Source: Methylobacter tundripaludum SV96
GTDB lineage: Bacteria > Pseudomonadota > Gammaproteobacteria > Methylococcales > Methylomonadaceae
Length of the DNA: 64,000 nt
Direction: 5' to 3'
Assembly: GCF_000190755.2 (NCBI RefSeq)
Contig: NZ_JH109152.1
Span: 2,613,576 to 2,677,575, forward strand
Within the stretch, counting starts at the first letter, position 1, and every line of letters starts with the position of its first letter. A program made the translations under genes and the position numbers. This document shows positions 1 through 34,180 of this stretch, one piece after another. The notes beneath the pieces were generated by a model that worked only from the letters and a program-made list of their open reading frames with translations, was not told the DNA's origin and ran no database searches.

Positions 1-364
1 TATCCGTCGCTACCTGATCATTACGGGAACGTCCGGTATGCAGTTTTTTTCCGGCAATGCCGATTAAATCGGTCAGGCGGGCTTCTATGTTCATGTGAAC
101 ATCTTCCTGCTTGATCGACCAGACAAATTCGCCGTTAATTATTTCCCGGCTGATTTGGGTCAGGCCGTTAATAATAGCGTCGCGTTCCTGTTCGGTCAGA
201 ATACCGCAAGAGCAAAGCATTTTGGCATGGGCGATTGAGCCCTCAATATCTTGTTGCGCCATACGTTGGTCAAAATCGACAGAGGCGGTAAATACCTCTA
301 CAAAGGCATCGGTTGCCTGGGCAAAACGGGCGCTGGAAAGTTTGTCGGAATTAACGTTGGTCAT
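1..364 (-). CDS. argH: Argininosuccinate lyase, N-terminal part (copy 1, cut by window edge)
   Basis: This is the first ~121 codons of an argininosuccinate lyase, read leftward from an ATG at 364. The DNA matches the start of the full argH gene at 18387-19835 with a constant offset of 19471 bases. The gene is cut only by the window edge; nothing here shows that it is broken. The enzyme splits argininosuccinate into arginine and fumarate. It belongs to the upstream copy of the duplicated block, so a full second argH is expected just left of the window if the duplication is genuine. Identity of the family is certain from the intact copy. Confidence 0.93.
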
Positions 365-1192
365 GGCGGTTTCATTGTAAGTTGACTATTGGGGCAAATT
401 ATACAGCGAAAGCTTACACTCCTGCTAACGCTCCTTACATACAACCTTGTAGGCAAAGCTTCCGTTCTTACCTGCATTCGTGCAGGTAAGTAATTAAAGT
501 TCGATTAACCGTCATCAACTTACACGGGTTACAATAACGTAATTTATTGTTGAAAATGAATGGTGTTCTTTTGACTGAAAAAATTATTCGTATTGCGACG
601 CGCCGGAGTCCTTTGGCGTTGTGGCAGGCAGAGCACGTTGCAGAACGTTTGGAGCGGACATTTCCAGGATGCAGGACTGAATTGGTTAAAATGACCACGC
701 AGGGCGACAAGATTCTTGATGCGCCTTTAGCCAAGATTGGCGGCAAGGGATTGTTTGTCAAAGAGTTGGAGCAGGGCATGTTGGAAGGTTTGGCCGATAT
801 TGCCGTGCATTCCATGAAAGATGTGCCGGTGGAGTTTCCGGAAGGCTTGCACTTGGCGGCCATTTTAATCCGCGAAGACCCAACCGATGCTTTTGTCTCC
901 AATCATTATGCGACGTTACACGATTTACCGGCTAATGCCAGAATCGGTACGTCCAGCTTGCGCAGACAATGCCAGATTAAAGAGCTTTACCCGGAAGCTG
1001 AAATATTGTCGTTAAGAGGTAACGTCAACACCCGCCTGTCCAAGCTGGATAGCGGTGAATACGATGCCATTATTCTGGCTTCGGCCGGTTTGAAAAGACT
1101 GGGCATGGCTGAACGCATTACTCAATGCCTGGATACCTCCGTCAGCCTACCGGCGATCGGCCAGGGCGCGATAGGCATAGAATGCCGGATTG
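1..1192. repeat. Left copy of a long direct repeat (argH 5' - hemC 5')
   Basis: Bases 1-1192 match 19472-20663 wherever I compared them, including the translated products, with no difference seen. Identity stops abruptly inside hemC: after the shared ...CCGGATTG, this copy continues CCTTATTGG while the other continues ACGATCCGG. The left border is outside the window. A repeat ending sharply at a gene-gene fusion is the expected picture for the novel joint of a tandem duplication whose unit is 19,471 bp. Near-perfect identity, including the non-coding spacer, implies a recent event or an assembly error. Confidence 0.95.
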
Positions 1193-2034
1193 CCTTATTG
1201 GTAGCGGGTGCGGGTGCTTTTTATATCGCGGATTATGCTAGTTGGAAAGTGGCTTATTTTGTAATGGCAACGGCCATGTCTGTGGGTCTGGTAACGACTC
1301 TTTGTCTTAAAGAGCCAGACCATAAGCATTTTGACGGAAGGTTGAGCGAGGATGTTGCGGTAAAGCGTCAGAATATCTGGCGGCGGTTGTCGATAAGTTT
1401 CGTGGATGCTGTGTTGCATCCCTTTGTGGAGTTTTTTGGACGCAACGGCAAGGTCGGTTTGTTAATTTTAATGCTTATCGCAGTTTACAAAATGAGCGAC
1501 ATTACCATGGGGGTTATGGCTAATCCGTTTTATCTTGATTTGGGTTTTAGTAAAAAAGATATCGCTGATATTAGTAAGGTTTTTGGGTTTTTTATGACCA
1601 TTGCCGGTGCTGCAATGGGTGGCGTGCTGGTTGTTAGGTATGGAATTATGCGTTCCTTGCTGCTAGGTGCGGTTATGGTGGCGGCTACTAATCTGTTGTT
1701 TGCTGTTTTGGCGGTTAGCGATCCCAATTTATTGCTGTTGGCAGGTGTTATAAGTGCGGATAATTTAAGTGGTGGAATAGCGACATCGGTGTTCATTGCT
1801 TACCTTTCCGGTTTAACCAGCACTGCGCACACAGCCACACAATATGCGTTGTTCAGTTCACTGATGACTTTGCCCGCCCAGCTATTAGGGGGGTTTTCCG
1901 GGGTAGTTGTAGATAGTTATGGCTACACTGTCTTTTTTATATATGCATCAACAGTAGGTTTGCCGGCAATCGTGCTGGTGCTTTTACTGATGCGCTATCA
2001 AAGCCGGTCTAAAGCGTATAACTATAATCCATGA
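556..2034 (+). CDS. Chimeric ORF: HemC N-terminal two thirds fused to AmpG-like permease C-terminal part
   Basis: Codons up to about base 1192 are identical to hydroxymethylbilane synthase (hemC at 20027), including [13 protein letters not shown] and the HSMKDVP loop. The protein then changes without a frameshift into the C-terminal ~280 residues of an AmpG-type MFS permease (muropeptide importer), recognised by [23 protein letters not shown] and [12 protein letters not shown]. The HemC part lacks domain 3 with the cofactor-binding cysteine (LSGGCQ in the intact gene), so it cannot be an active synthase. The AmpG part lacks its first few membrane helices. Neither activity is expected. The ORF stays open only because the fusion is in frame. 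ATG 556 is used; TTG at 547 or 571 are possible. Confidence 0.85.
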
Positions 2035-2054
2035 TGAGTGGAGCATGATCGGAA

Positions 2055-2082
2055 GAGTGCTCATTTTTATAAGATGAGCGCT
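2055..2082 (+). terminator. Hairpin downstream of ampG portion
   Basis: A 9-bp stem (2055-2063 with 2074-2082, one G-U pair) lies 20 bases after the stop codon of the AmpG part. There is no clear run of T after the stem, so it is only a possible terminator. Confidence 0.35.
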
Positions 2083-2199
2083 ACCGTTACTTTAATCTTT
2101 AAGAGCGGGGCTGATTATTTGACAATCAATGAGTCAGTCGACGTTTTTACCAAAGATTGACCTCTGTTTGATCGCCCGTACTGTTCTACTGTTCGGCTT

Positions 2200-2788
2200 T
2201 TTGATTAATTTAATCTGAACGCGTCTATCCTGCGTCCATTAGCAAATAATTGATTCAGCCAAGTCCTTCCTTCGGGTAAACAGCCGGAGTTCTTTTGATT
2301 GTCTCTCCAGTTTTTTGGTCAATTTCTTTGTGGGCTATGTTCCAGTCGCCGCAGATTATGTAGTCACGGTCATTTTGTGAGCATTATTGTAAAGAAGGAG
2401 TGAATTTTTCCATGAATTTAACCTTGAAGGCTTGTCGGTCTTCTCCCCTGATGAGCCGAAAGGTAAGTAAAGCGGGATAATGTTAAATCACCAAATTGAG
2501 CTTCAATAAAGCGGTCTTCGGTATTGATTTCTCGCACAACCTGTGCTGTTAATGATTTTATCGGGCTGTTTCTGCAATATAAAGCCAATCCGCTAGAGTC
2601 TTTTTTTCTGCGCCATGGTAAAAACGGTGATGGTTTACAAGGAAGAATGGATCGAAACTGAGTTGATACGGCTGGGCTTTTGTTTCTTGTATACAAATAA
2701 TATCGGTGTTTTGTGGCTGCATCCATGTGAAGAAACCTTTGCGTCCTGCGGAGCGGATGCTATTTGCGTTTAAAGTAATAATGCGCAT
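2200..2788 (-). pseudogene. xthA: Decayed exodeoxyribonuclease III
   Basis: Read leftward from ATG 2788, the first 76 residues match the N-terminus of exonuclease III (MRIITLNANSIRSAGRKGFF, then CIQETKAQP). The reading frame then breaks. Later pieces of the same family continue in other frames: VVREINTEDRFIEAQFG near 2500, DYIICGDWNIAHKEID near 2330-2380, and LPEGRTWLNQLFANGRRIDA near 2220-2280. The last ~60-80 residues of the ~260-residue family are not seen. Several frameshifts in the right order mean this was a whole gene that is now dead. Exo III is an AP endonuclease and 3'-5' exonuclease of base-excision repair; a functional copy is presumably elsewhere. Confidence 0.85.
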
Positions 2789-2883
2789 AAATTAAATTGA
2801 GTTGCGAACTTTTAATGAAATACGTATTATATGGGGTTCTTTAATAAAGTATGTAGCCCGTTTGTGGGTAATGTGAAAGTGAT

Positions 2884-3084
2884 ATGAAACCAGAAATTCA
2901 TCCAGAATATAAGCAAATTACTGTAACTTGCGGTTGCGGTAATAAATTTGAGACCGGTTCTGTATTGGGTAAGGACTTGCAAGTTGAGGTTTGTTCTTCA
3001 TGCCATCCTTTTTATACAGGAAAGCAGCGCGTTGTTGATACAGCGGGGCGTGTTGATAAATTCCGTAAAAAATACGGTAAATAA
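2884..3084 (+). CDS. rpmE: 50S ribosomal protein L31, zinc-binding type
   Basis: A 66-residue protein of the large ribosomal subunit. The conserved pattern TCGCGN...[13 protein letters not shown] carries the cysteines of the zinc-binding (C+) form of L31, and the C-terminus VDKFRKKYG is typical. Length is normal for bacterial L31. It stands alone, with an ATG start and AAAGTGA-rich leader, and is followed by a strong hairpin at 3167-3223. The cysteine-containing form is often replaced under zinc limitation by a cysteine-free paralogue; no such paralogue is in the window. Confidence 0.96.
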
Positions 3085-3166
3085 AAGGATTGGTATTTTT
3101 TATTGCATCTGATGCGTAGGTAAGCAAAAGGGCATAGGTATATTAGTCATTTTTATTTTGCATGTC

Positions 3167-3223
3167 CGCCATAAAGCAGAAAGCCAGTACAGCATTGTTG
3201 TACTGGCTTTCTGCTTTATGGCG
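3167..3223. terminator. 25-bp perfect inverted repeat after rpmE
   Basis: Bases 3167-3191 are perfectly complementary to 3199-3223 with a 7-base loop. It lies between rpmE and the convergent gene at 3379-3816 and could end transcription from both sides. There is no immediate T-run on the plus strand (a run of seven T follows about 13 bases later), and the stem is longer than most simple terminators, so it may be a dispersed palindromic repeat. Confidence 0.6.
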
Positions 3224-3378
3224 ACTAGACTTTCGATTTTTTTGTAGCGTTTGTTATTCTTGGGATTCAATAACACTTTATATTTAATGGGGGGATTTGA
3301 GTGAATTCTAAAAGGTAGTTCGCGCAATAAATTGGAGGGTGGGGCAATAATTGCGTATTAATGCCAGTAGGCAATATC

Positions 3379-3816
3379 TTAAATAGAATCTAAGCCGGAC
3401 AGTCCTTCAATGGACCAGTTGGCAAAATCAAGGGAACCTTCATCGTTGTCGCCGTTTTTGTAATTAATTCGGCAGACATATTTCTTGGTGGTTGTGTTTG
3501 CGGCAGTGCTCGTGATATCGATTTCGGCGTTAATAATATATTGGTAGTTTCCTAAGCTCCAGGCATTAAGAGGTTTTTCAGGGAAGTTAATCGATACATC
3601 TGGACCAAGTTTGGATTTAATGTAGCTATTGCAATGCATAAAGGCGAGTTTGGTTAATGGTGTGGAGATAGGGGATTGCCCTCCTTGATCTTTGCTGTCA
3701 ACAAGAAACAAATCAGATTGAACTACTTTGTAAACGAAGGGCATGATGACTTTGCTCTGGATTAAAAGTAGAGTTGATAATGCGACAATAAAAATTATGA
3801 TGGAGTATTTCTTCAT
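3379..3816 (-). CDS. Hypothetical protein with N-terminal membrane anchor or signal
   Basis: A 145-residue protein with no family I recognise. Residues 5-20 are strongly hydrophobic (IIIFIVALSTLLLIQS), consistent with a signal peptide or single anchor. The remainder is polar, with two cysteines (in MHCNSY and YVCRINYK) that could form a disulfide outside the cytoplasm, and alternating-pattern segments such as NAEIDITSTAANTTTKKYVC suggesting beta structure. The combination is that of a small periplasmic protein. It is convergent with rpmE and divergent from pmoCAB, which starts ~290 bases away. Confidence 0.6.
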   Translation of the reverse strand: MKKYSIIIFIVALSTLLLIQSKVIMPFVYKVVQSDLFLVDSKDQGGQSPISTPLTKLAFMHCNSYIKSKLGPDVSINFPEKPLNAWSLGNYQYIINAEIDITSTAANTTTKKYVCRINYKNGDNDEGSLDFANWSIEGLSGLDSI

Positions 3817-3948
3817 GGGCTTAAGATAATTGAGTTAAAGAAAAGTAAAATCAAAATTAATTCTAACAGGAATCAATGTTTTAAGTGTAGAGGAATTTGG
3901 TGGGTAAAGCCTGGATTCAAGGAAATGTATTGGGTGCTTGTTTTTGAC

Positions 3949-3976
3949 TTGACAAGGCTAATTGAACTGGTAGACT
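3949..3976 (+). promoter_or_regulatory. Sigma70-like promoter of pmoCAB
   Basis: A TTGACA box at 3949-3954 is followed after 16 bases by TAGACT at 3971-3976. Transcription would start near 3983, giving a leader of about 120 bases before pmoC. A sigma70-type promoter ahead of pmoC is known from Methylococcus. The leader holds a weak GC-rich pairing (CCCC near 4060 with GGGG near 4077). The rest of the gap 3817-3948 shows nothing else. Confidence 0.6.
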
Positions 3977-4104
3977 GACAGCTCACTAAATTGACTTGGT
4001 GGCACTTGGGCCTTAATGTTTTTAGGTTTGGGTGAGAAAATGGAGTTGTAACTATAGCCCCTGGTCATAACTGGTCGGGGATTTGATAATTTTTGGAGGT
4101 AGAA

Positions 4105-4857
4105 ATGGCAGCTACAACTGAATCAGTGAGAGCTGATGCTGCGGAAGCACCGCTGTTAAATAAGAAAAATATGATCCTTGGATCACTGCTGTATGTAGTG
4201 TTCTATGGTTGGGTTCGTTGGTATGAAGGTGTCTATGGCTGGTCAGCTGGTCTGGATTCATTCGCTCCTGAATTCGAAACATATTGGATGAACTTTCTTT
4301 ATATCGAGTTTGTTTTAGAAGTAGCAACTGCAGGCATTTTGTGGGGCTATATCTGGAAATCTCGTGATCGTAAAGTAATGTCAATCACACCAAGAGAAGA
4401 GTTAAGAAGACATTTTACTCATTGGACTTGGTTGGTAATGTATGGCTTCGCTATCTATTACGGCGCTAGCTACTTTACAGAGCAAGATGGTACATGGCAT
4501 CAAACTATCGTTCGTGATACTGACTTTACACCAAGTCACATCATCGAATTTTATTTGAGCTATCCTATCTACATCATTACTGGCGGCGCTGCTTTCTTAT
4601 ATGCAAAAACCAGACTTCCTACTTATCAGCAAGGTCTGCACCTTCAATATATGGTTGCAGTAGTTGGTCCTTTCATGATTCTGCCAAATGTTGGTTTGAA
4701 TGAATGGGGTCATACTTTCTGGTTTATGGAAGAGTTGTTTGTTGCTCCTTTACACTACGGCTTCGTATTCTTCGGATGGGCAGCTTTGGGTGTAATGGGT
4801 GTTGTGAACACAGAAGTTATAGCTATCGCTAAGCTTCTGAAAAAAGACTTAGCTTAA
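4105..4857 (+). CDS. pmoC: Particulate methane monooxygenase subunit C
   Basis: PmoC is a membrane subunit of the copper enzyme that oxidises methane to methanol in intracytoplasmic membranes. The protein is 250 residues from ATG 4105, chosen because a GGAGG ribosome site sits 5 bases upstream; an in-frame TTG at 4093 overlaps that site and is unlikely. Several membrane helices are evident. The two metal sites mapped in Methylococcus PmoC are present at equivalent spacing: Asp128, His132 and His145 (CuC), and Asn199, His203 and His217 (CuD, within NEWGHTFWF and APLHYGF). It is the first gene of pmoCAB and is separated from pmoA by a hairpin. Codon use is A/T-rich compared with the flanking genes, as expected for a very highly expressed gene. 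Confidence 0.98.
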   Translation: MAATTESVRADAAEAPLLNKKNMILGSLLYVVFYGWVRWYEGVYGWSAGLDSFAPEFETYWMNFLYIEFVLEVATAGILWGYIWKSRDRKVMSITPREELRRHFTHWTWLVMYGFAIYYGASYFTEQDGTWHQTIVRDTDFTPSHIIEFYLSYPIYIITGGAAFLYAKTRLPTYQQGLHLQYMVAVVGPFMILPNVGLNEWGHTFWFMEELFVAPLHYGFVFFGWAALGVMGVVNTEVIAIAKLLKKDLA

Positions 4858-4891
4858 TAATATAAGTCTTGGTTGTAATTACTATCTCCGC

Positions 4892-4926
4892 TTGCTGTTT
4901 CGCTTTTTTTCAGGGCGAAACAGCAA
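4892..4926 (+). promoter_or_regulatory. Hairpin between pmoC and pmoA
   Basis: A perfect 12-bp stem (4892-4903 with 4915-4926) encloses an 11-base loop that contains a T-run. It lies 35 bases after the pmoC stop and ~55 bases before the pmoA start. It could cause partial termination or protect the 3' end of pmoC mRNA after processing, setting unequal subunit levels. That role is inferred from position only. Confidence 0.6.
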
Positions 4927-4980
4927 AAGTTGAAGATGGTCATTAATAAAAATAATTTAAATCCTTTAGGAGGTAAGCTA

Positions 4981-5724
4981 ATGAGCGCATCTCAATCAGC
5001 TGTACGTTCACGCGCTGAGGCAGTTAAAGTTTCACGCACGTTCGACTGGCTAATTCTGTTCGTATTGTTCTTCGTTGTACTTGGTGGTTATCACATTCAC
5101 TACATGTTAACTGGTGGTGACTGGGATTTCTGGACTGACTGGAAAGATAGACGTCTATGGGTAACTGTAGCTCCAATCGTTTCAATCACTTTCCCAGCAG
5201 CTGTTCAAGCTGTGTTGTGGTGGCGTTACCGTTTGCCTTTCGGTGCGGTAGTTTGTATCTTAGGTCTGCTTTTAGGTGAGTGGATTAACAGATATTTAAA
5301 CTTCTGGGGTTGGACTTATTTCCCAGTGAATTTCTGCTTCCCTTCAAACCTGATGCCAGGTGCTATTGTTCTTGACGTTGTGTTGATGCTGTCAGGCAGT
5401 ATGACAGTTACAGCGGTAATCGGTGGTATGGCATGGGGTCTGTTATTCTATCCAGGCAACTGGCCAGTTATAGCACCATTACATGTTCCTGTTGAATACA
5501 ATGGCATGATGATGACACTAGCTGATTTACAAGGTTACCACTACGTAAGAACTGGTACACCTGAGTACATCAGAATGGTTGAAAAAGGTACATTAAGAAC
5601 TTTCGGTAAAGACGTTGCTCCAGTATCAGCGTTCTTCTCTGCTTTCGTGAGTATTTTGATTTACTTCTTGTGGCATTTCTTCGGTAAATGGTTCGGTGGT
5701 ACTTCATTCACCCAAAGCGCGTAA
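4981..5724 (+). CDS. pmoA: Particulate methane monooxygenase subunit A
   Basis: PmoA is the 247-residue membrane subunit used as the marker gene for methanotrophs. The start at ATG 4981 follows an AGGAGG site at 4970-4975 and gives the standard length; an in-frame upstream extension to 4930 crosses the ribosome site and is not coding. Diagnostic segments are GGDWDFWTDWKDRRLW, LLGEWINRYLNFWGW, YFPVNFCFPSN and FSAFVSILIYFLWH. The sequence is of the gammaproteobacterial type I kind and not the ammonia-oxidiser AmoA or the alphaproteobacterial kind, judged from recall. It is the second gene of the operon, 123 bases after pmoC and 110 before pmoB. Confidence 0.98.
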   Translation: MSASQSAVRSRAEAVKVSRTFDWLILFVLFFVVLGGYHIHYMLTGGDWDFWTDWKDRRLWVTVAPIVSITFPAAVQAVLWWRYRLPFGAVVCILGLLLGEWINRYLNFWGWTYFPVNFCFPSNLMPGAIVLDVVLMLSGSMTVTAVIGGMAWGLLFYPGNWPVIAPLHVPVEYNGMMMTLADLQGYHYVRTGTPEYIRMVEKGTLRTFGKDVAPVSAFFSAFVSILIYFLWHFFGKWFGGTSFTQSA

Positions 5725-5782
5725 GCACTTGGTTGTAGGAAATTACACAAAAAGACTGATGTTAACACTAAAAAATAAGCTG

Positions 5783-5811
5783 TTGACATTAGATACTCTG
5801 AAAACTATAGA
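5783..5811 (+). promoter_or_regulatory. Possible second promoter in front of pmoB
   Basis: TTGACA at 5783-5788 is separated by exactly 17 bases from TATAGA at 5806-5811, close to a consensus sigma70 promoter. A start near 5818 would leave a leader of only ~17 bases holding the GAGGAGG site. This would let pmoB be transcribed separately from pmoCA. Seen by sequence match only. Confidence 0.45.
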
Positions 5812-5834
5812 TTCTCTATTATAGAGGAGGATAT

Positions 5835-7079
5835 ATGAAATTAATAAAAGACAAGGTTGCTAAATTATCCTTTGTCGCACTGCTGGTAACTGTTACAGCA
5901 GCGATGTTTTACGCACCAACTGCATCTGCTCATGGCGAAAAGTCGCAAGCCGCATTTATGCGTATGCGTACAATTCACTGGTTTGACTTGAATTGGTCAA
6001 AAGATACAGTGCCTGTGAATGATACTATGACAATTTCCGGTAAATTCCACGTTTTCGCGGGATGGCCTGAAACTGTTGATAAACCAGAAATTTCATTCTT
6101 GAACATCGGTATTCCTGGACCTGTATTTATTCGTCAAGGTTCATGGATCGGTGGTCAATTAGTTCCACGTTCAGTTTCTCTGGAATTGGGTGAAACTTAT
6201 GAGTTTAAAGTATTGTTAAAAGCACGTCGTCCAGGTGACTGGCACGTACATACAATGATGAACGTTAAAGGCGGTGGTCCAATCATCGGTCCAGGTAAAT
6301 GGGTAACTGTTACTGGTACTATGGGATCATTTGTTAACCCAGTTACTACGTTGTTAGGTGATACAATCAACCTGGAAACGTATAATCTGAGCAACACTTA
6401 CTTTTGGCACGCTTTCTGGTATGCCTTAGGTTTGGCTTGGTTGGGATATTGGGCTCGTAAACCAATATTTGTTCCACGTCACATTGCTGTTGAAGCAGGT
6501 AAAGCTGATTCATTGATCACTGCTACTGACAAGAAAGTTGCTATGGGTTTTGCAATCGGTACAATTGCAGTTGTTGCTTTCGGTATGAGCAGCACAAACG
6601 CAGCGTATCCTGTAACAACTCCATTGCAAGCTGGTTTGTTGCGCGGCATGAAACCAATTGAAATGCCTGCAAAAACTGTTAACGTTAAAGTTGAAGATGC
6701 AACTTATCGTGTACCAGGTCGTGCAATGCAAATGACACTGACTATCACTAATAATGGTGATTCTTCAGTACGTTTAGGTGAGTTTAACACTGCTGGTGTT
6801 CGATTCTTAGATCCTAAGGTTCATGTTGACGAAACAGGCTACCCAGATGACTTGTTGGCTGAAGAAGGATTGACTGTTAGTGATAACAGCCCAATCGCTC
6901 CAGGCACATCAAGAACTGTGCAAGTTACTGCTTCTGACGCTGCTTGGGAAGTTTACCGTTTAGCTGACTTGATCTATGATCCAGACAGTCGTTTCGCTGG
7001 TTTGTTATTCTTCTTTGATGAAGCTGGCAACCGTCAAATGATTATGGTAGATGCTCCATTAATTCCATCTTTCATCTAA
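5835..7079 (+). CDS. pmoB: Particulate methane monooxygenase subunit B
   Basis: PmoB is the largely periplasmic 414-residue subunit. It begins with a signal peptide ending at ASA (residues 1-32), so the mature protein starts at His33, a copper ligand in Methylococcus PmoB. The other characterised ligands are at the same numbers: His48, His72, His137 and His139, the last two in GDWHVHTMMN. Two cupredoxin-like domains flank two membrane helices (about residues 190-210 and 235-255, with NTYFWHAFWYALGLAWLGYW). The start follows GAGGAGG with 4 bases spacing. It ends the operon and is followed by a strong terminator. With complete PmoC and PmoA the operon should encode a working enzyme. Confidence 0.98.
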   Translation: MKLIKDKVAKLSFVALLVTVTAAMFYAPTASAHGEKSQAAFMRMRTIHWFDLNWSKDTVPVNDTMTISGKFHVFAGWPETVDKPEISFLNIGIPGPVFIRQGSWIGGQLVPRSVSLELGETYEFKVLLKARRPGDWHVHTMMNVKGGGPIIGPGKWVTVTGTMGSFVNPVTTLLGDTINLETYNLSNTYFWHAFWYALGLAWLGYWARKPIFVPRHIAVEAGKADSLITATDKKVAMGFAIGTIAVVAFGMSSTNAAYPVTTPLQAGLLRGMKPIEMPAKTVNVKVEDATYRVPGRAMQMTLTITNNGDSSVRLGEFNTAGVRFLDPKVHVDETGYPDDLLAEEGLTVSDNSPIAPGTSRTVQVTASDAAWEVYRLADLIYDPDSRFAGLLFFFDEAGNRQMIMVDAPLIPSFI

Positions 7080-7126
7080 ATGAAATAATTAACTGATAAC
7101 TTTGGTTGTCAGTTAAGGGATTTGAG

Positions 7127-7162
7127 ACCCTCGTTACCAAATAGGTAGCGAGGGTTTTTTTT
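7127..7162 (+). terminator. Rho-independent terminator of pmoCAB
   Basis: A 12-bp stem (7127-7138 with 7144-7155, one G-U pair) with a 5-base loop is followed directly by a run of T to about 7163. It lies ~50 bases after the pmoB stop. A textbook terminator. Confidence 0.9.
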
Positions 7163-7264
7163 TGAATGAAAAATATGAATTTGAGTCCTCAAGGTTGATT
7201 AAAGTGGTCCCCGAAATCCGGACAGTAGTTTAAGCTATGCTCTGGGCTAAATTAGAGACCGAAA

Positions 7265-7701
7265 ATGAGTGAAAAGAAACGAAAGATTACGGGTGCGCAA
7301 AAAGCCAAGGTTGCCTTAGAAGCCGTCAAAGGGTTGAAGACGATCAATGAAATTGCTCAAGAACAGAACCAGGTGAGTCAATGGAAAAAAGAACTGTTGG
7401 AGAATGCGGGCAGCCTGTTTGAAGGCAAGCGAGGGCCGAAACCGATCAACGCGGAAAGCAACCCTGACCGCTTATACGCCAAGATTGGGCAATTGAACAT
7501 GGAGTTGGATTGGCTGAATACCCACACGGGGCACTAGAAAAAAGTCTGGGATCAGCCTTTAAACGAACGCCAGAGCTGGATAGAACCGGATGCCTCTGTC
7601 CCGTTATCAACGCAATGCAAGTTTCTCAAGGTCACGCGTTCAGTCATTTATGAGCAGAAAAAACGCTTGCTGAAAGAAACGGATAAGGACGAACTCGTGT
7701 T
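7265..7701 (+). pseudogene. IS3-family OrfA (HTH part), degenerate
   Basis: The N-terminal 90 residues are the helix-turn-helix OrfA of an IS3-family element (KRKITGAQKAKVALEAVKG, NQVSQWKKELLENA). About five residues before NQVSQW, usual in this family, appear missing. The frame meets a stop at 7535-7537, after DWLNTHTGH, where the family normally runs on (DWLKKK). Transposase-like residues continue after the stop (KKVWDQPLNERQSWIEP, LKVTRSVIYEQKKR) up to the OrfB region at 7702. Confidence 0.75.
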
Positions 7702-8513
7702 ATGCGTTTGTTAGATGAAGAGTACCCAAGGCACCCGTTTTATGGCTCGCGCCGCATGAAGAAATACCTGGGTGAATGTGGCTATAGCGTCAATCGCAAG
7801 CGGGTACAGAGATTAATGCAAAAGTTAGGCTTGGTCGGCATGTCCCCCGGCCCGAATACCAGTAAACCGCATCCGCAGCACAAAATTTATCCGTACCGAC
7901 TCCGTGGCGTTGACATTATTCAGCCCAATCAGGTGTGGAGCACTGACATCACCTATATTCGGCTACCCCGCGGATTTGTTTATCTGGTCGCGATCATCGA
8001 CTGGTACAGCCGGAAAGTACTGTCGTGGCGACTATCGAATACCATGGATGCTGGGTTTTGCGTGGACTGTCTGGAAGAGGCCATCACGCTGTACGGTACA
8101 CCGGCCATTTTCAATTCCGACCAAGGCTCGCAATTCACCAGCGACGCCTTTACCGGCGTGTTGCTCAACAACAGCATCACGATCAGTATGGATGGACGAG
8201 GCCGAGCATTGGATAATATCTTTGTCGAGCGGCTGTGGCGAACGATGAAATATGAAGAAGTGTATTTAAAGCAGCACAGCAACATGCCGGACTTGTTGAT
8301 GGGATTGACGAGTACTTCCAATTCTATAACCAGGAACGTTGGCATCAAGCGCTGGATTACAAAACGCCGGATGAAGTCTATAAAACGGCTAGAGGCGGCG
8401 GGGCAAAGATTGTGGATAAATTTAACGGTACGGCTGAAATATCAGACCTCGTGCCGCAAAACTGGGACAGCGCCATTCAGCTGGAGCGTGAACAGGGCTC
8501 TATCTTAAATTAA
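7702..8513 (+). pseudogene. IS3-family OrfB transposase (DDE), frameshifted
   Basis: The integrase-type catalytic core is present, with all three acidic residues in context: WSTDITYI, FNSDQGSQFT and DNIFVERLWRTMKYE. Upstream is the HTH_21-like segment HPFYGSRRMKKYL. Near 8300, after DLLMG, the frame is lost; the expected C-terminus (IDEYFQFYNQERWHQALDYKT...QNWDSAIQL...GSILN) continues in the next frame to a stop at 8511-8513. As it stands the protein would have a wrong C-terminus, so transposition activity is doubtful unless frameshifting rescues it. Confidence 0.8.
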
Positions 8514-8547
8514 GGTATTATTTGTCTGGACAATGGGGTCCACTTTA

Positions 8548-11098: not shown

Positions 11099-11113
11099 TA
11101 TGTAGGAAATCCG

Positions 11114-12127: not shown

Positions 12128-12418
12128 AGATTTTCTCCAGATTGATGAAATGAAAACTTACAAAAACGGATAACCCTAAAGTCTCCGAGAATCCGTTTAA
12201 TTGTACCAAAAATTAAGACGGTTAGTCTATTGACGTAGAAGACAGCTATTGTGGCTATAAGCATGTTGCTGTACTGGCAAATCGTTAAGGATAAGAGATT
12301 GCTATTGATTGTCCATGGCCACAGAGTTCACTTGAAGGTAAGCAGAGATAATGTGGGCGGCTTAATTTAAAATTTGAATCCAAAATTATACATACCACAA
12401 AAACAGTAAAGGGCTAAC

Positions 12419-15400
12419 TTGAAAATAAATCCTCTCCCGCTGCTTCAGCGCCTTAAAGTATGGCAGTTATGGTTGTTCTCAGTGATCCTCTCGGTGTTGT
12501 TGACTGAGGTCATTGTTGCCGTCATGGGGTTATTGCTAAAGGGAGAAGTGCCTCCCGATTACCTGCTTACCGGGTTAGTTGCGTCGTGTTTTGTGGCTTC
12601 TTTGGTCGTGGCTATGCTGGGCTATTTTCTTGAAAAACTCACCGAGAGCCAGCTGCAGCTATACGCCATCATTGAAGCCGAACCTGAGTGCGTAAAGCTG
12701 GTGGCAGCAGACGGAACGTTGCTGCAGATGAACCGCGCCGGGTTGAATATGATCGAAGCGGATTCCCTGGATCAAGTCCTCGGTCAGCAGATACCGCAAC
12801 TTATGACAGCGGAATATCAGGACGCCTTTATAACGCTGACAAAGCGCGTGTTTGAGGGCGAGTCCGGCAATCTGAAATTCGAGATGCGTGGGCTCAAGGG
12901 TACATATCGCTGGATGGATACCCATGCGGTTCCCTTACGCGATTCACATGGTCATATTACTGCATTGCTCGCCGTTACTCGCGACATTACCGAGCACAAA
13001 GCGTCGGAAACGGCACTACAAGAAGCGTTGGATCGTCTTCAGAAAATTGCCAGTCGGGTGCCCGGACTTGTATTTCAATTTCAGATGCGCCCCGATGGTA
13101 GTTCCTGCTTTCCTTTCGCCAGTGAAGCGATCCGTGATATCTATCGGGTCAGTCCGGAGGATGTACGAGATGATGCATCCAGGGTATACGCCGTCCTGCA
13201 CCCCGACGATTATGACGGCATCGTCGCCTCCATTCAAGCGTCGGCACGGCGGTTGACCCCTTGGCGGCATGAGTATCGTGTGAAGTTTGACGATGGCACG
13301 GTGCGTTGGCTGTTCGGCAACTCATTGCCGCAACGGGAAGCGGACGGCTCGGTGCTTTGGCACGGCTTCATCACCGATGTGACTGAGCGCAAACGGGCGA
13401 CGGCGTCGCTGTTGGAGAGTGAAGCCCGTTTCCGCACTATGGCGGATAGTGCGCCTGTGCTGATCTGGATCGCCAGTCCTGACAAGTTTTTCCACTATTT
13501 TAATAAGGGCTGGCTGGAATTTACCGGGCGGACAATGGAGCAGGAAATAGGCAATGGCTGGATAGCTAACGTACATCCGGAAGACTTCCAGCGTTGCTTC
13601 AATACCTACGTCACCTCTTTCGATGCCCGTCATGAGTTCAGCATGGAATATCGTTTGCGCCGCTTTGATGGAGAATACCGCTGGCTGCTCGATCATGGGG
13701 TGCCGCTTTATGACGAGCAAGACACATTCTTGGGTTACATCGGCTCCTGCATCGATATTACCCGGCGTAAGTTGTCTGAGACGGATCTGCGCATCGCGTC
13801 TACCGCCTTCGAATCCCAGGAAGCCATGGCCATCACCGATAAGGATCAAGTCATTCTCCGGGTCAATCAGGCATTTGTCCGGGTTACCGGTTATAGCGTT
13901 GAGGAGGCTGTTGGCAAAACGCCGGCCCTGCTCAAGTCCGGGAGGCAGGATGCCCCGTTCTATCAGGCGATGTGGAAAAGCCTGTCTCGCGATGGACACT
14001 GGCAGGGCGAAATCTGGAACCGGCGCAAGAACGGCGAGGTGTACCCCGAATGGCTCAACATTACCGCCGTAACCGATGAGGGTGGCCAGGTCACCAACTA
14101 TGTCGCATCCTTTTCCGACATCACCGAGCGCAAGACGGCGGAATATGAGATCCAGCATCTGGCCTTCCATGACTCGCTTACCCAGCTTCCCAACCGCCGG
14201 TTGTTGCTGGAACGCTTGAAGCACGGTATTGAGGTAGAACGACGCGAAGGCAAGCAGCTGGCATTGCTGATGCTCGACCTGGATCGATTTAAAGCCGTCA
14301 ACGACAGCTTTGGGCATCAGGCGGGTGACGAGTTGCTGCAACAAGTCGCCCGCAGAATAACAAGCCGGTTGCGAGAGGTAGACATGGTTGCCCGTTTGGG
14401 CGGTGATGAATTTATCGTGTTGCTGGAAGATATTACACACCCGGACGATGCTGCGCGGGTCGCTGAAGGAATTATCGCAGACTTAAGCAAATCCTTTCAG
14501 CTTCCCCAAAGTGACGATGTACAGATTGGCGTCAGTATTGGTATCAGCCTGTATCCGCAACACGCAGTCAACCCAGAAATGTTACTGGATTACGCTGATA
14601 CAGCGTTATATCACGCTAAAGATAATGGGCGCGGCTGCTTTGCCTATTTTTCCGAAGACCTGACTATTGCTGTCCGTGAGCGTATTGCGTTAGAAGTCCG
14701 TCTGCGCAAAGCGATTAAACAACAGGAGCTGCGTGTGTTCTACCAGCCGCAAATGGATATTGCCAGCGGTCGTATTGTCGGTGCTGAGGCGTTAGTGCGC
14801 TGGCAAGATCCTGTCGAAGGATTGATTCCCCCTTGCCGCTTTATTCCCATTGCCGAAGAAACCAATTTGATTGTGGAGATTGGCGAATGGGTGCTGCGCG
14901 AAACCTGTAGGCAGGGTCGGCAGTGGCTGAATATGGGGTTGCCACCGTTAACCCTGGCGGTTAATGTTTCCCCGCACCAATTCCGGCGCAGTGACATTAA
15001 CGCCTTGGTTGCAACGGTACTGCGCGACACCGGTTTTCCGGCAGGGCAGCTGGAATTGGAGATAACCGAAAGCGGGTTGATGGAAAACCAGGACAAAACG
15101 ACGAACATTCTCAACAGCCTGCATGCCCAAGGCGTTCATCTTGCCATTGACGATTTCGGCACCGGTTATTCGTCGCTGACCTATCTCAAACACTTTCCTC
15201 TGGACGTACTGAAAATCGATAAGAGTTTTATCGACGATATTCCCCATAATAAAGACGACATGGAAATTGCAGCGACCATTGTGGCGATGGGGCATATCTT
15301 GGGTTTCAAAGTGCTGGCGGAAGGCGTGGAAACGCTGGAACAGCTGGCTTTCCTGCAAGAGCAAAGTTGCGACTTATACCAAGGTTATCTCAAAAGTCAC

Positions 15401-15481
15401 CCGCTGCCGGCGGATGATTTTGTCGCGCTGCTCCAGGCAAACGATTCATCTCCAAAAAAGCCAGTCGAAAGCGACAGATAA
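12419..15481 (+). CDS. Membrane-bound PAS-GGDEF-EAL protein (c-di-GMP turnover)
   Basis: A 1020-residue signalling protein starting at TTG 12419. Two membrane helices (about 14-40 and 47-68) are followed by four PAS-like domains, each ending in the typical DITEHK, DVTERK, DITRRK and DITERK tails (about residues 77-200, 205-325, 330-455 and 460-580). The diguanylate cyclase domain has an intact GGDEF motif (~661-665), with an RxxD product-inhibition site (REVD) five residues before it. The EAL phosphodiesterase domain has EALVRW (~789), NVSPHQF, the DDFGTGYS loop, KIDKSFI and EGVET. Both activities look catalytically complete, so the net direction cannot be told. Its stop lies 2 bases from the cyaA stop, so the genes converge without room for a terminator. 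Confidence 0.95.
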   Translation: MKINPLPLLQRLKVWQLWLFSVILSVLLTEVIVAVMGLLLKGEVPPDYLLTGLVASCFVASLVVAMLGYFLEKLTESQLQLYAIIEAEPECVKLVAADGTLLQMNRAGLNMIEADSLDQVLGQQIPQLMTAEYQDAFITLTKRVFEGESGNLKFEMRGLKGTYRWMDTHAVPLRDSHGHITALLAVTRDITEHKASETALQEALDRLQKIASRVPGLVFQFQMRPDGSSCFPFASEAIRDIYRVSPEDVRDDASRVYAVLHPDDYDGIVASIQASARRLTPWRHEYRVKFDDGTVRWLFGNSLPQREADGSVLWHGFITDVTERKRATASLLESEARFRTMADSAPVLIWIASPDKFFHYFNKGWLEFTGRTMEQEIGNGWIANVHPEDFQRCFNTYVTSFDARHEFSMEYRLRRFDGEYRWLLDHGVPLYDEQDTFLGYIGSCIDITRRKLSETDLRIASTAFESQEAMAITDKDQVILRVNQAFVRVTGYSVEEAVGKTPALLKSGRQDAPFYQAMWKSLSRDGHWQGEIWNRRKNGEVYPEWLNITAVTDEGGQVTNYVASFSDITERKTAEYEIQHLAFHDSLTQLPNRRLLLERLKHGIEVERREGKQLALLMLDLDRFKAVNDSFGHQAGDELLQQVARRITSRLREVDMVARLGGDEFIVLLEDITHPDDAARVAEGIIADLSKSFQLPQSDDVQIGVSIGISLYPQHAVNPEMLLDYADTALYHAKDNGRGCFAYFSEDLTIAVRERIALEVRLRKAIKQQELRVFYQPQMDIASGRIVGAEALVRWQDPVEGLIPPCRFIPIAEETNLIVEIGEWVLRETCRQGRQWLNMGLPPLTLAVNVSPHQFRRSDINALVATVLRDTGFPAGQLELEITESGLMENQDKTTNILNSLHAQGVHLAIDDFGTGYSSLTYLKHFPLDVLKIDKSFIDDIPHNKDDMEIAATIVAMGHILGFKVLAEGVETLEQLAFLQEQSCDLYQGYLKSHPLPADDFVALLQANDSSPKKPVESDR

Positions 15482-15483
15482 GA

Positions 15484-18288
15484 TTAAATGTTGAATTTAT
15501 CCTCTATTTTTTGTTTGTAGTTTAAATAATGGATGGTTTGCAATTGCTCCGGGTTGTCGATGCGGAATGCAGAAAGGGGCAGGTCTATATCGGTAATATG
15601 AATCGGATAATTAATCTTACCGTTCCGAAATTGGAGTATATGCTGGTAAGCGGCATAAAAGACTTGATTGCCGTGGTCTAGCGAGGAAAACTCTTTTTCA
15701 TTGCAGTAGATCGAATAGATAATGCCCTTGTGGGTATCTTCCCCGGTAATGCGCAAGCTTAATTCCTGGTTTGATGCGGTTGCTTTCAGTTGTACAGGGG
15801 CATAAGAAAAGATGCCGGCAGGACTTTTCGTGATCTCGTAATATTCAATGGTCAAAAGCGTTTCAAAAAGATTGCGGTTGAGGATCGATTCTAAAAAAAT
15901 GGCATATTGTTTTAGCAGTTGGCTCGGCTTTGCTTTGCTATGCGGCTGGATATACAGGGCGCCTTTTTCATCAACAATATAGACACTGGTGTCAGTCTTG
16001 CTTTCATAGTAAAAAAGCTGGATCACTTGCGGCCTGTTCAGGGAATAAATAAGATGAATGGGTGTGTTTTCGAGGACCGCTGGGTCGAAATGAATGGTGC
16101 TGAACTGTTCCTGAGGGCTTGCTAATTCGCTTAATAACTGTTTTCTGGTTGCCAGCTGTTTGTAGCTTAGGGTTTTGTTTGCGGATTGGAAGACATAAAA
16201 CGAAGTTCCGCCAGGCAAAATATAGCGGGGTGAGCGATTATGATGTTGTTTGGAGAAAAGTTTAATCAGGGTATTAAATACTGCTTCAACGCGGAGGATA
16301 ATGCCTTTGGCCCGAGCCGGAGTGTGGCACACAAACTTCAGGCTACTCAAGGATAACGGTTTTTTACTGTTATTAATGGCATCCGCTAAACAGTTAAATA
16401 GCCCTTCTATGCCTTCATCCTGGCTGGTTGTGATTTCGCCCCAGCTGGACAGTGAAATCCTGTTGATAGTTTGAATAAAACACTGGCGGTTCATGCCGTA
16501 ACTTAACGCATCGGAACGCTCACTCATAACGCACAGGCCGTCGTCATCCGATATGCCCATATTGATAATAAGCAGTGAATTCAGTTGAGCTTTGAGGGTT
16601 TGGTAGGTTTCCAGCGGAGGGTCGTAGTTAAAGCTCTGGGTTAAATAAAGGTTGATCTGCGTCAGCGTTGAATGCAGCTCTTCATTCGGTATTTTAAGTG
16701 AATGCGAACTGAACTGGAGCTGTAGCTGTTTGTGATAGAGTCCGTTGATGATCAGCCAGCAAAGGATTTCGATTAAAGACCGACATTTTTGTATGGGTTC
16801 GAAATCTGCGGCGTTAGTCATCTGTACGTTTTTCAGGTACATAGCCCAGCCATCGCCGCCGGGAAGACGGTTTTCTACGATAGACAAGGTATTTTCTTTT
16901 GAGTGGACTTCCGAGCGAGTCGTGATGATTTCAATCTTACCCGGCTTTTTTTCCAAAAAGGAATGAAGCTTTCTGCCGATCAATTTCAGGTCGTTGCTGT
17001 TTTCCTGGTTTTGGGCAACATGGTCTCTGGCGAACCCCATAATCATGCGGTAGCAGTGGGTCAATTGTTGCACGATAACGGCATGTTCCGACGTTGCTTT
17101 TTTTATATTCCAGAGTCGCTGATATTTAAGGTTATCAATAGTGGAGGCGGGCCAATTCCAGTTATTAGCAATAGAGTGCATATATTTTTCCCTGGTGGCT
17201 CTGGTCTGGGAATCCATGGTGTTGTCGGACGAACCCATGACTTTTAAATAAAAGCATTGACGAGCCAAGGCCAATCTTCCGTGGCTATGCGCTTTTTGCA
17301 GATATTTTTCGACTTTTTGGTAAATGAGCAAATACGGGTCGAGATCGGTCGTCATATAGTCGCCCTGATAAACGGCCTTTTTTATGTCCTGACACAGCCA
17401 TTCAGGCTGAGGATATTCGCTGGCATAGCATTCCATTAACAACAGTTTCAATAGCGATTTATGCGGTGAATGCAGCGCCTTATAAAGATGCCAAAGGGTT
17501 GCGCTGGTAAATTCTTCAGCCGGGACAGCGTCGAAGCCGCCGAAATCGATAAGCTCATGTTCGGGAATGAACCGGTTAGCTATTAAGTGCTTGATATAGG
17601 CTGTGTAGTTTCTTTCTTCATGCGGCGGGACCAGCCACCATGCAGGGCTTTTCCCCGCAATATAAATTGCCGTCCGGTAAAACTCTTCAAGCAGTAGATA
17701 ATGCTGGGTTTGGCCGCTGCTTTCCGTGGAAATGGGGGTGTTTTCACCGAGCAGGAATTGTTTGCTGTCCATCAGAAAGAAATGCACTTCCAGTCCTAGC
17801 GATGCCGCCCAAATCTCTATTGCGGTGGCTTTTTTTTGCAGCTCGGCAATGGCGCAGGACAATAAGTCGGATTGATGGCATAACCAAATGTCCATATCGC
17901 TGGTTTTGGAAAATGCGATGCTGCCGACGCTGCCCATCAAGAACAGGCCTTCAATAGGGTAAGTCTGTGATGCCGCGCGGGTATAAGTGAAGTTTTTTGC
18001 AAGTTGCCTGGCGGCATTTATTGCCTGGATGCCAGGGTTGTATTCGGGTATTCCTGCGGGAGTTGTCGAAGAAATAAATCCCGGTAACATCGGGAAGTTG
18101 CAATGGAAAAGCAGGGGTAATAAGTCCAGGAATGTTTGTTGGCGAGGTTGCAAAAAATCCTGGACTCGTTGTTCGCGTAGCTGATTCAAGCGTTTAAATC
18201 GGTATTTAATCGTTTGAAGGTCTTGTATGCTGATTTCTTCGCCGGGTGAGCCTAAATGGATGGCAGGCTCTGGGTGTGGTCTTATCAT
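15484..18288 (-). CDS. cyaA: Class I adenylate cyclase
   Basis: It makes cAMP from ATP and is typical of gammaproteobacteria. The 934-residue protein is somewhat longer than the enterobacterial enzyme (~848). The N-terminal catalytic nucleotidyltransferase region shows LFLMGSVGSIAFSKTSDMDIW, the GS...DxD pattern of this class, with RFKRLNQLREQR before it. The large C-terminal regulatory region is present and ends in short family-like segments (YFQ-type repeats are not obvious). It is encoded against the c-di-GMP gene, so two second-messenger genes lie tail to tail. No partner PTS gene is nearby. Confidence 0.93.
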   Translation of the reverse strand: MIRPHPEPAIHLGSPGEEISIQDLQTIKYRFKRLNQLREQRVQDFLQPRQQTFLDLLPLLFHCNFPMLPGFISSTTPAGIPEYNPGIQAINAARQLAKNFTYTRAASQTYPIEGLFLMGSVGSIAFSKTSDMDIWLCHQSDLLSCAIAELQKKATAIEIWAASLGLEVHFFLMDSKQFLLGENTPISTESSGQTQHYLLLEEFYRTAIYIAGKSPAWWLVPPHEERNYTAYIKHLIANRFIPEHELIDFGGFDAVPAEEFTSATLWHLYKALHSPHKSLLKLLLMECYASEYPQPEWLCQDIKKAVYQGDYMTTDLDPYLLIYQKVEKYLQKAHSHGRLALARQCFYLKVMGSSDNTMDSQTRATREKYMHSIANNWNWPASTIDNLKYQRLWNIKKATSEHAVIVQQLTHCYRMIMGFARDHVAQNQENSNDLKLIGRKLHSFLEKKPGKIEIITTRSEVHSKENTLSIVENRLPGGDGWAMYLKNVQMTNAADFEPIQKCRSLIEILCWLIINGLYHKQLQLQFSSHSLKIPNEELHSTLTQINLYLTQSFNYDPPLETYQTLKAQLNSLLIINMGISDDDGLCVMSERSDALSYGMNRQCFIQTINRISLSSWGEITTSQDEGIEGLFNCLADAINNSKKPLSLSSLKFVCHTPARAKGIILRVEAVFNTLIKLFSKQHHNRSPRYILPGGTSFYVFQSANKTLSYKQLATRKQLLSELASPQEQFSTIHFDPAVLENTPIHLIYSLNRPQVIQLFYYESKTDTSVYIVDEKGALYIQPHSKAKPSQLLKQYAIFLESILNRNLFETLLTIEYYEITKSPAGIFSYAPVQLKATASNQELSLRITGEDTHKGIIYSIYCNEKEFSSLDHGNQVFYAAYQHILQFRNGKINYPIHITDIDLPLSAFRIDNPEQLQTIHYLNYKQKIEDKFNI

Positions 18289-18386
18289 GGTGAAAGCATT
18301 ATTTTTAAACTGAAACTAAGCCGATAATCAAGAGTCTTTTAACAAAGCGCACCGCCGAGATACGAAGATCCGGACGCTAACAAATA

Positions 18387-19835
18387 TTACAATCCAGGTG
18401 CTGCCGCACCGGTTTTGTGGTGAGTAATTAACAGGCTTAGTTGATCGTGCTCCAGCGTTGCCCGTGCTGTCTGGATGGCGAGCCTAACCGTACCGGGAGC
18501 CGTGCCGCCAATGTGTTTACGAGCCGAAACCGAGCCTTCCAGCGTTAAATAATCAAAAACATCATCGGTAATCAAGCCCGAAAAATGCTGTAGCTCTGGC
18601 AGGGACAGTTCCGATAAATCGCGTTTGCTTTCCAACCCTAAGCGCACTGCCAAGCCCACGACTTCATGAGCATCGCGAAAAGCCATGCCTTTACGTACCA
18701 GATAATCGGCAAGGTCGGTGGCCGTGGCAAAGCCGCGTTTGGCCGAGTTGTACATATTGGTTTTTTTGGCTTCGAGGTGGGGAACCATATCGGCATAAGC
18801 CCGCAAGCAATTGATTAAGGTGTCGGCGGTATCGAATAGCGGTTCTTTATCTTCCTGATTGTCTTTGTTGTAGGCCAGCGGCTGGCTTTTCATCAGCATC
18901 AGCAGCGAAACCAAGTGACCGGTGACCCGGCCTGATTTGCCGCGCACCAGTTCGGGTACGTCGGGGTTTTTCTTTTGCGGCATAATCGAGGAGCCGGTGC
19001 AGAAAGCATCGGGCATCTCGATAAAGTCGAACTGGGCGCTGGACCACAGGATTAATTCTTCGGAAAAACGCGATAAATGCATCATGATCAAGCTGCCGGC
19101 CGCCGCAAACTCAATCGCAAAATCGCGGTCACTGACCGAGTCCAGCGAGTTGGCCGAAGGGCGGCTAAAACCGAGTAAATCGGACGTCATCTGGCGGTCT
19201 ATCGGGTAACTGGTTCCGGCCAATGCCGCAGAGCCTAAAGGCATAATGTTGACGCGCTTGCAGCAATCTTGCAGTCTTTCCCGGTCGCGACTGAGCATTT
19301 CAAACCAGGCCATCAGGTGGTGGCCGAAAGTAATCGGTTGGGCGACCTGTAAATGCGTAAAGCCCGGCATGATGGTATCGGCGTGTTGCTCCGCCAAATC
19401 CAGAATGGCTGTTTGCAAGCGCGTGAGCTGGCCTAAAATCTGGGTGATTTCACTGCGCAGGTAAAGGCGAATATCCGTCGCTACCTGATCATTACGGGAA
19501 CGTCCGGTATGCAGTTTTTTTCCGGCAATGCCGATTAAATCGGTCAGGCGGGCTTCTATGTTCATGTGAACATCTTCCTGCTTGATCGACCAGACAAATT
19601 CGCCGTTAATTATTTCCCGGCTGATTTGGGTCAGGCCGTTAATAATAGCGTCGCGTTCCTGTTCGGTCAGAATACCGCAAGAGCAAAGCATTTTGGCATG
19701 GGCGATTGAGCCCTCAATATCTTGTTGCGCCATACGTTGGTCAAAATCGACAGAGGCGGTAAATACCTCTACAAAGGCATCGGTTGCCTGGGCAAAACGG
19801 GCGCTGGAAAGTTTGTCGGAATTAACGTTGGTCAT
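18387..19835 (-). CDS. argH: Argininosuccinate lyase (intact copy)
   Basis: The last enzyme of arginine synthesis: argininosuccinate to arginine and fumarate. The 482-residue protein has the fumarase/aspartase signature [12 protein letters not shown], the [13 protein letters not shown] segment near the N-terminus and [13 protein letters not shown], with the usual ending [10 protein letters not shown]. Its start at 19835 is conserved in both copies. It is divergent from hemC across ~190 bases. Only the first 121 codons of the other copy are visible at the window edge, so whether the cell has two full argH genes depends on the upstream sequence. Confidence 0.97.
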
Positions 19836-20663
19836 GGCGGTTTCATTGTAAGTTGACTATTGGGGCAAATTATACAGCGAAAGCTTACACTCCTGCTAAC
19901 GCTCCTTACATACAACCTTGTAGGCAAAGCTTCCGTTCTTACCTGCATTCGTGCAGGTAAGTAATTAAAGTTCGATTAACCGTCATCAACTTACACGGGT
20001 TACAATAACGTAATTTATTGTTGAAAATGAATGGTGTTCTTTTGACTGAAAAAATTATTCGTATTGCGACGCGCCGGAGTCCTTTGGCGTTGTGGCAGGC
20101 AGAGCACGTTGCAGAACGTTTGGAGCGGACATTTCCAGGATGCAGGACTGAATTGGTTAAAATGACCACGCAGGGCGACAAGATTCTTGATGCGCCTTTA
20201 GCCAAGATTGGCGGCAAGGGATTGTTTGTCAAAGAGTTGGAGCAGGGCATGTTGGAAGGTTTGGCCGATATTGCCGTGCATTCCATGAAAGATGTGCCGG
20301 TGGAGTTTCCGGAAGGCTTGCACTTGGCGGCCATTTTAATCCGCGAAGACCCAACCGATGCTTTTGTCTCCAATCATTATGCGACGTTACACGATTTACC
20401 GGCTAATGCCAGAATCGGTACGTCCAGCTTGCGCAGACAATGCCAGATTAAAGAGCTTTACCCGGAAGCTGAAATATTGTCGTTAAGAGGTAACGTCAAC
20501 ACCCGCCTGTCCAAGCTGGATAGCGGTGAATACGATGCCATTATTCTGGCTTCGGCCGGTTTGAAAAGACTGGGCATGGCTGAACGCATTACTCAATGCC
20601 TGGATACCTCCGTCAGCCTACCGGCGATCGGCCAGGGCGCGATAGGCATAGAATGCCGGATTG
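19472..20663. repeat. Right copy of the long direct repeat (argH 5' - hemC 5')
   Basis: Counterpart of bases 1-1192 at a constant offset of 19471. In this copy hemC continues normally past 20663, so this is the parental arrangement and the left copy carries the new joint. The distance between copies defines a 19,471-bp unit, 1193-20663. Confidence 0.95.
19938..19961. promoter_or_regulatory. UUCG-loop hairpin in the argH-hemC spacer
   Basis: A perfect 10-bp stem (19938-19947 with 19952-19961) closes on a TTCG tetraloop, an unusually stable combination. The same structure is at 467-490 in the left copy. Just upstream (about 19880-19935) is a segment akin to a dispersed repeat also found inside hemX. 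It may be part of that repeat and not a regulator. Confidence 0.5.
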
Positions 20664-20968
20664 ACGATCCGGAAATTAATGAGATGTTGAGTGCGTTGCA
20701 TGATAGTGAAACCGGACTGTGTGTGGCGGCGGAAAGGGCAATGAACGCGCGTTTGAGTGGCGGCTGCCAGGTTCCGATTGCCGGTTTTGCCACGATGCAG
20801 GGCGAGCAACTGTTCATGCGCGGATTGGTCGGCAGTCCTGACGGCAGCGTGATCTATCGGGCTGAACGGACGGACAGCGTGGACAGCGCTGAAGCTATCG
20901 GCAAAATGATTGCCGAAGACTTACTGGCTCAAGGCGCCGATGAAATTCTGCAAGCGCTGTTTCATTGA
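20027..20968 (+). CDS. hemC: Hydroxymethylbilane synthase (porphobilinogen deaminase)
   Basis: It joins four porphobilinogens to hydroxymethylbilane in haem, sirohaem and cobalamin synthesis. Domains 1 and 2 show [42 protein letters not shown] and RGNVNTRL. The dipyrromethane cofactor is held by the cysteine of [11 protein letters not shown] in domain 3, present here but missing from the chimera at 556-2034. ATG 20027 is the only ATG near the start; TTG at 20018 or 20042 is possible, the last giving the length closest to the E. coli protein. It heads the hemC-hemD-hemX-hemY cluster. Confidence 0.97.
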
Positions 20969-33906: not shown

Positions 33907-34180
33907 GTCAATTCTGGGGTGTTTGGAGGATTTATTGAGGCAGGTGTCCAGTTGCTGCAAATTAACCTAGACGAAGTTAAGGATTAATATGGGGTGTTAA
34001 TCAACATGCAAAAATTATCGGGGAATCGGGGGAATAAAGATTGAAAACTTTTCAGGTTCCAAGAGTGTTGCTTAGGAAATCAATGTCATACAGTACATTA
34101 AGCGGGTAGAGTCAGTGTTGATAACTGGAAAATGTGGGGCGTTGATTGACAATAACTGAATGCTGTTTGCCACTCTTTTC

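Follow-up and report, generated by a model that had tools for sequence, protein, structure and literature searches.

A probable recent tandem duplication of a 19,471-bp segment carrying pmoCAB in the draft genome of Methylobacter tundripaludum SV96

How many copies of the methane monooxygenase operon pmoCAB does Methylobacter tundripaludum SV96 carry? The question is raised by a 64,000-nucleotide stretch of its draft genome (hereafter the window; G000:C1:2613576-2677575, in an assembly of 4,848,329 bases in 3 contigs), where pmoCAB lies within a segment whose last 1192 bases also appear at the left edge of the window. A first-pass annotation, made from the letters alone, had read this arrangement as a head-to-tail duplication of a 19,471-bp unit. 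Our analysis supports that reading, and we consider it likely that the locus underwent a recent, microhomology-mediated direct tandem duplication of 19,471 bp, an event known here from one assembly. The repeat, its joint and its boundaries are as follows.

1-1192: right-hand end of the putative upstream unit, comprising the beginning of argH and the 5' part of hemC; a scaffold gap borders on base 1
2-364, minus strand: fragment of the start of argH
547-2034, plus strand: hemC'-'ampG hybrid open reading frame (ORF), 495 aa, an open frame with Pfam Porphobil_deam at 14-214 and then MFS_1 at 218-442
1192/1193 (feature 1186-1193), plus strand: novel joint from unit end to unit start, with the microhomology CGGATTG at 1186-1192
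1193-20663: the putatively duplicated unit, 19,471 bp, the sole complete copy assembled
20018-20968, plus strand: hemC, intact and with both domains (Pfam), crossing the native right boundary 20663/20664 and followed by hemD
20657-20663, plus strand: microhomology CGGATTG, the right breakpoint copy, in hemC

The observations on which the first-pass annotation was built were borne out. Positions 1-1192 and 19472-20663 form a direct-repeat pair (family D1, spacing 19,471) that is identical over 1192 bases with 0 mismatches, and the identity stops sharply at 1192/1193. Given an identical run of 1192 bp, a chance match can be discounted as a plausible origin of the repeat. At the joint, the left copy of hemC continues in frame into ampG; the C-terminal domain of HemC and the N-terminal portion of AmpG are both missing from the resulting hybrid, whose product is presumably non-functional. 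The right copy, which had been taken for the normal arrangement, indeed holds an intact hemC and then hemD. In addition, the joint has a head-to-tail orientation, the 20663 side being connected to the 1193 side, and native junctions flank both outer sides of the array, with ampG on the left before the gap and hemC-hemD on the right.

The same seven bases, CGGATTG, terminate the native left side in ampG (L016:5136-5142), and a comparison of the 60 bases preceding the unit in native ampG with the 60 preceding the joint showed exactly the last 7 to be common to both. One copy of the motif is retained at the joint. Because CGGATTG stands at all three junctions, the breakpoint can be placed only to within 7 bp; the unit is firmly 19,471 bp long, and its phase can be shifted by up to 7 bp. 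Seven or more shared bases occurred at a fraction of 0.00057 (~0.06%) of 400,000 random ampG/hemC joints. The ends thus carry a short match, with no long repeat or insertion sequence (IS) at either breakpoint. Homologous recombination as the source, whether between long repeats or between IS copies, was rejected, as the ends share 7 bp only and the IS ORF of the locus is internal to the unit. A palindrome-driven origin was likewise unsupported, since the settings used revealed no inverted repeats of at least 8 bp up to 100 bp away from the joint or from either breakpoint.

Immediately before base 1 the assembly contains a scaffold gap of 100 N (G000:C1:2613476-2613575; L016:5901-6000), and the left edge of the window is this gap edge and has no biological meaning. 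The 758 bp preceding the gap are 100% identical to window positions 1193-1950, and to the left of this stub lies the 5' part of native ampG (from L016:4590) and then its neighbours, which we take to be nhaD and cysI. The draft order is cysI, nhaD, ampG, 758 bp of the unit, the gap, the last 1192 bp of the unit, the joint, the full unit, the rest of hemC and hemD, so that the assembly contains each of the three junctions expected of a direct tandem duplication, with their shared parts 100% identical. As expected, ampG stands upstream in its native context; the gene is assembled up to 84 bp short of its stop, where the gap interrupts it. Similarly, a second unit sought in the 20 kb upstream is represented by its first 758 bp, followed by 100 N and not by a readable unit. 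We searched the genome with the DNA of 1-1192, 1193-9193 and 9194-19471 and found no second unit: matches of 100% were confined to the window and the 758-bp stub, those of 1-1192 being two places, both within the window. Weaker matches in the genome were short repeats, IS pieces, a 78% cyaA paralogue and relatives of GGDEF-EAL/PAS genes at 68-78%. One full unit is therefore what the assembly contains, and we infer the tandem arrangement from its junctions. The remainder of the other unit, at least 17,521 bp (window 1951-19471), would sit in the 100-N gap, and the hidden length would grow by 19,471 bp with each further unit.

The behaviour of other gaps in this genome fits a true repeat at the pmo locus. 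Across 67 own-genome loci (1,236,994 bases, overlaps included) there were three gaps, each of exactly 100 N, one of them being displayed by two loci (L124 and L142). One comparison gap (L142:13385-13484; G000:C1:1958385-1958484) lies inside the 16S gene of the third rRNA operon and, judged against another rRNA operon, hides ~1,298 bp; the other two 16S rRNA genes of the genome are complete. The second (L131:1157-1256; G000:C1:2871157-2871256) lies inside a repeat of ~2.6 kb that recurs at C1:2788748-2791318, and hides ~715 bp. As the three gaps are all exactly 100 N and two of them hide ~1,298 and ~715 bp, 100 N is an arbitrary placeholder and not a measured length. The flanks of the comparison gaps reach 807, 820, 1048 and 3723 bp into their repeats, and those of the pmo gap 758 and 1192 bp; flank identity to the second copy is 98.9-99.9% at the two comparison gaps and 100% at the pmo gap. 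A single-copy locus would give an assembler no cause to break here.

To place the breakpoints we used 22 other genomes of the genus. The hemC breakpoint is crossed continuously in 21 of them, in 20 over nearly all of the 600-base query and in one (G009) from base 205, with G007 unmatched. The ampG breakpoint is crossed continuously in 11; one genome gave a 68-base match and ten gave none, and ampG at comparable similarity appears to be missing from about half of the genomes of the genus. No match ran across the joint in any of the 22, of which 21 match one or both of its halves and G007 neither, and a conserved arrangement at the joint was rejected on this ground. Relatives being continuous across both breakpoints and none across the joint, comparison indicates that the outer junctions are native and that the joint is derived.

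We also compared gene order around 80 PmoA loci from named GTDB genomes. The order cysI-nhaD-ampG-orf-pmoCAB, with ampG at 74-91% identity, occurs in nine (L020, L021, L022, L023, L028, L030, L031, L039 and L079); L032 has the same order with an ampG match of merely 35%, and L024 and L029 have cysI-nhaD-orf-pmoCAB without ampG. On the other side, pmoCAB-pyk-gap-cyaA-argH was found in L024 and L052, the former also reaching the start of hemC. Its left-hand and right-hand portions thus both occur, in different relatives, and several loci that have ampG upstream and extend 5-10 kb downstream (for example L020, L028, L031 and L039) have no pyk-gap there; the pmo neighbourhood is thus variable within the genus. 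Identical ends of 15-200 bases, the sign sought for collapsed tandem units, were present in none of the 80 loci, a weak negative given that many are truncated contigs. An exact direct repeat of 41-53 bases was present in three of the 80, and none was longer. In six loci (L023, L030, L032, L050, L059 and L079) the contig stops ~0.2-0.8 kb after pmoB, which could reflect repeats, IS elements or strain mixtures downstream.

In the sequence of events that we favour, replication or repair would have connected a point in hemC to a point in ampG through CGGATTG, by a RecA-independent template switch or by end joining, to give ampG-[unit]-[unit]-hemC. Each end of the array would retain an intact copy of the gene cut there, with the hybrid confined to the middle joint; since the breaks fall inside ampG and hemC in this way, the duplication would not have to sacrifice any function and, dosage aside, may be neutral. 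The assembler would have retained one full unit, failed to bridge the other and placed 100 N for at least 17,521 bp. The copy number would be two at minimum, and a longer or varying array is possible. The added dose would be one each of pmoCAB, pyk, gap, cyaA, argH and a PAS-GGDEF-EAL signalling protein, and these genes, with a transposase ORF, are placed in the unit as follows.

4105-4857, plus strand: pmoC (Pfam AmoC, 405 bits)
4978-5724, plus strand: pmoA, the only canonical copy assembled (Pfam AMO, 435 bits; own-genome search)
5835-7079, plus strand: pmoB (Pfam Monooxygenase_B, 640 bits)
7702-8508, plus strand: transposase ORF downstream of pmoB, inside the unit and off its breakpoints (Pfam rve, HTH_21)
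9653-11098, minus strand: pyk (Pfam PK)
11114-12127, minus strand: gap (Pfam Gp_dh)
12419-15481, plus strand: PAS-GGDEF-EAL signalling protein (Pfam)
15484-18288, minus strand: cyaA, class I adenylate cyclase (Pfam)
18387-19835, minus strand: argH (Pfam Lyase_1, ASL_C2)

Several results weigh against a duplication. The joint is known from a single genome, in a single assembly, and none of the 22 relatives has it; the whole order ampG-pmoCAB-pyk-gap-cyaA-argH-hemC is found in no single relative locus among the 80. Where the first-pass annotation had placed another pmoCAB with argH and gap-pyk directly upstream, none is readable: the genome assembly has no further copy of pmoCAB, gap-pyk or argH, and yields one canonical PmoA and one 53% relative. 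Finally, the zero differences over 1,950 bp are what a young duplication would give, and a consensus sequence used twice would look alike.

One rival reading is an artefact of assembly or library preparation, in which a chimeric template or a finishing error made the joint and the chromosome holds one unit. The joint is 1192 bp away from a contig edge that adjoins a scaffold gap, a setting in which mis-joins usually occur; one complete unit is assembled in a draft that is broken at other repeats as well; and template-switch chimeras formed during library preparation can use microhomology. Software alone is a poor candidate, because an overlap of 7 bp is far under what assemblers accept. A rare chimera, for its part, should neither displace the native ampG junction from a long contig nor break it, and a single-copy locus leaves unexplained why that junction carries 758 bp of duplicated sequence. 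The assembly error that had been put forward as the main alternative is weakened, and we regard an artefact as unlikely. An excised 19.47-kb circle or plasmid beside a single chromosomal copy, with the joint as its point of closure, would predict the identical joint sequence and assembly graph. Pfam identified no replication gene in 10 of the unit's ORFs, however (one of them, 3379-3816, matched no family), and a non-replicating circle would be rare and could hardly dominate the contig. Nor did a search of 72,556 plasmid records support a plasmid origin: nowhere was 80% of 893-4092 covered, and no match across the joint occurs in any of the 11 plasmid records listed, in a set from which records of this genome were possibly left out. 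We consider the circle very improbable.

A mixed population, with part of the culture carrying the duplication or arrays of differing length coexisting, would yield a composite assembly that looks the same, and tandem amplifications are reported to be unstable, with copy numbers that vary (PMC11721125). The assembly itself offers no positive sign of such a mixture, which we hold possible but somewhat doubtful; being a form of the tandem duplication that we favour, it shares part of the probability given to that reading. A further step, that two or more tandem units form an adjustable pmoCAB array, here at its founding stage, which expands and contracts by recombination and raises methane monooxygenase dosage under selection, seems to us rather unlikely. 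A growth advantage from the added dosage is conceivable.

Would a second pmoCAB be expected in this lineage? In the genus (23 genomes, own included) PmoA matched in 20, in one of them merely as a 60-residue fragment; none of the 23 has two canonical copies, and five have a second match at 51-53%. The family survey covered 179 genomes at least 90% complete, own included, with a PmoA cut-off of E <= 1e-110. PmoA was found in 153 of these and was single-copy in 152, these counts being lower bounds because short-read drafts merge copies that are identical, although 13 of the 152 genomes are given as one contig. The exception, G031, has two PmoA on different contigs, with 92% and 89% identity to the query. 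By this survey, paired pmoCAB operons are not the rule in the family. The first-pass statement that many methanotrophs hold two near-identical pmoCAB operons thus holds for Methylococcus, where this is reported (PMC517821, PMC8527097), and not for this family. Two copies are also reported for Methylospira (PMC6956133), and single copies for Methylomicrobium album BG8 and strain KS41 (PMC3624686, PMC6119699).

The kind of event proposed is ordinary and well known, and it is the pmoCAB setting that is unusual. Elsewhere pmoCAB copies can lie far apart, as in the chromosome of Methylococcus strain Bath, or adjacent to each other, as two of the Methylacidiphilum operons do; here, unlike in Bath, the second pmoCAB would adjoin the first within a 19.5-kb unit, in a family that is otherwise single-copy. 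Methylococcus and Methylospira, with their two operons, resemble this locus in their raised pmoCAB copy number (PMC517821, PMC8527097, PMC6956133). Methylacidiphilum likewise has several pmoCAB operons, three in all, of which pmoCAB1 and pmoCAB2 respond differently (PMC4210602); they are separately regulated and do not form an identical repeat with neighbouring genes. Another relevant case is the 5,267-bp tandem repeat of RuMP genes in strain Bath (PMC517821, where it is called a tandem duplication, and PMC8527097), in which a methanotroph chromosome carries genes of C1 metabolism as identical direct copies, although that repeat lacks pmoCAB and is described from all Methylococcus genomes studied, whereas the pmo joint is in one genome. 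Short matches are characteristic of amplification junctions in bacteria, as in lac amplification in starving cells of E. coli, where all 40 sequenced junctions showed microhomology (PMC3161906); that amplification arose under known laboratory selection, whereas the pmo duplication is known from an assembly alone. We found no report of a plain pmoCAB tandem duplication in the open literature, most subscription papers lying outside the search.

If real, the duplication would represent the first step of a rise in pmoCAB dosage in an otherwise single-copy lineage, caught with exact breakpoints. It would also be a warning that scaffold gaps in draft methanotroph genomes can conceal a whole pmoCAB copy, and that single-copy counts from drafts are therefore lower bounds.

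Some further observations concern genes of the unit and its surroundings. The own-genome PmoA search returned the query itself and the 53% PmoA-like protein, which we take to be of the pxm type. The transposase ORF at 7702-8508, presumably of IS3 type, has a part that matches at 99% near the very start of contig C1 (G000:C1:675-1123). A diverged whole-gene copy of cyaA, with 78% DNA identity, is found distant from the unit locus at G000:C2:239497-242313 and would represent an older duplication or acquisition. Further downstream in the window, the 3' end (26838-27243) of an apparently GTPase-like ORF at 25733-27250 is repeated 7.3 kb downstream at 34151-34556 with 87.7% identity over 406 bp, and a third short piece lies at 36531-36610. 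The repeat, which resembles the trace of an old duplication or insertion, has copies on either side of an apparent RND-type efflux operon (27404-33834).

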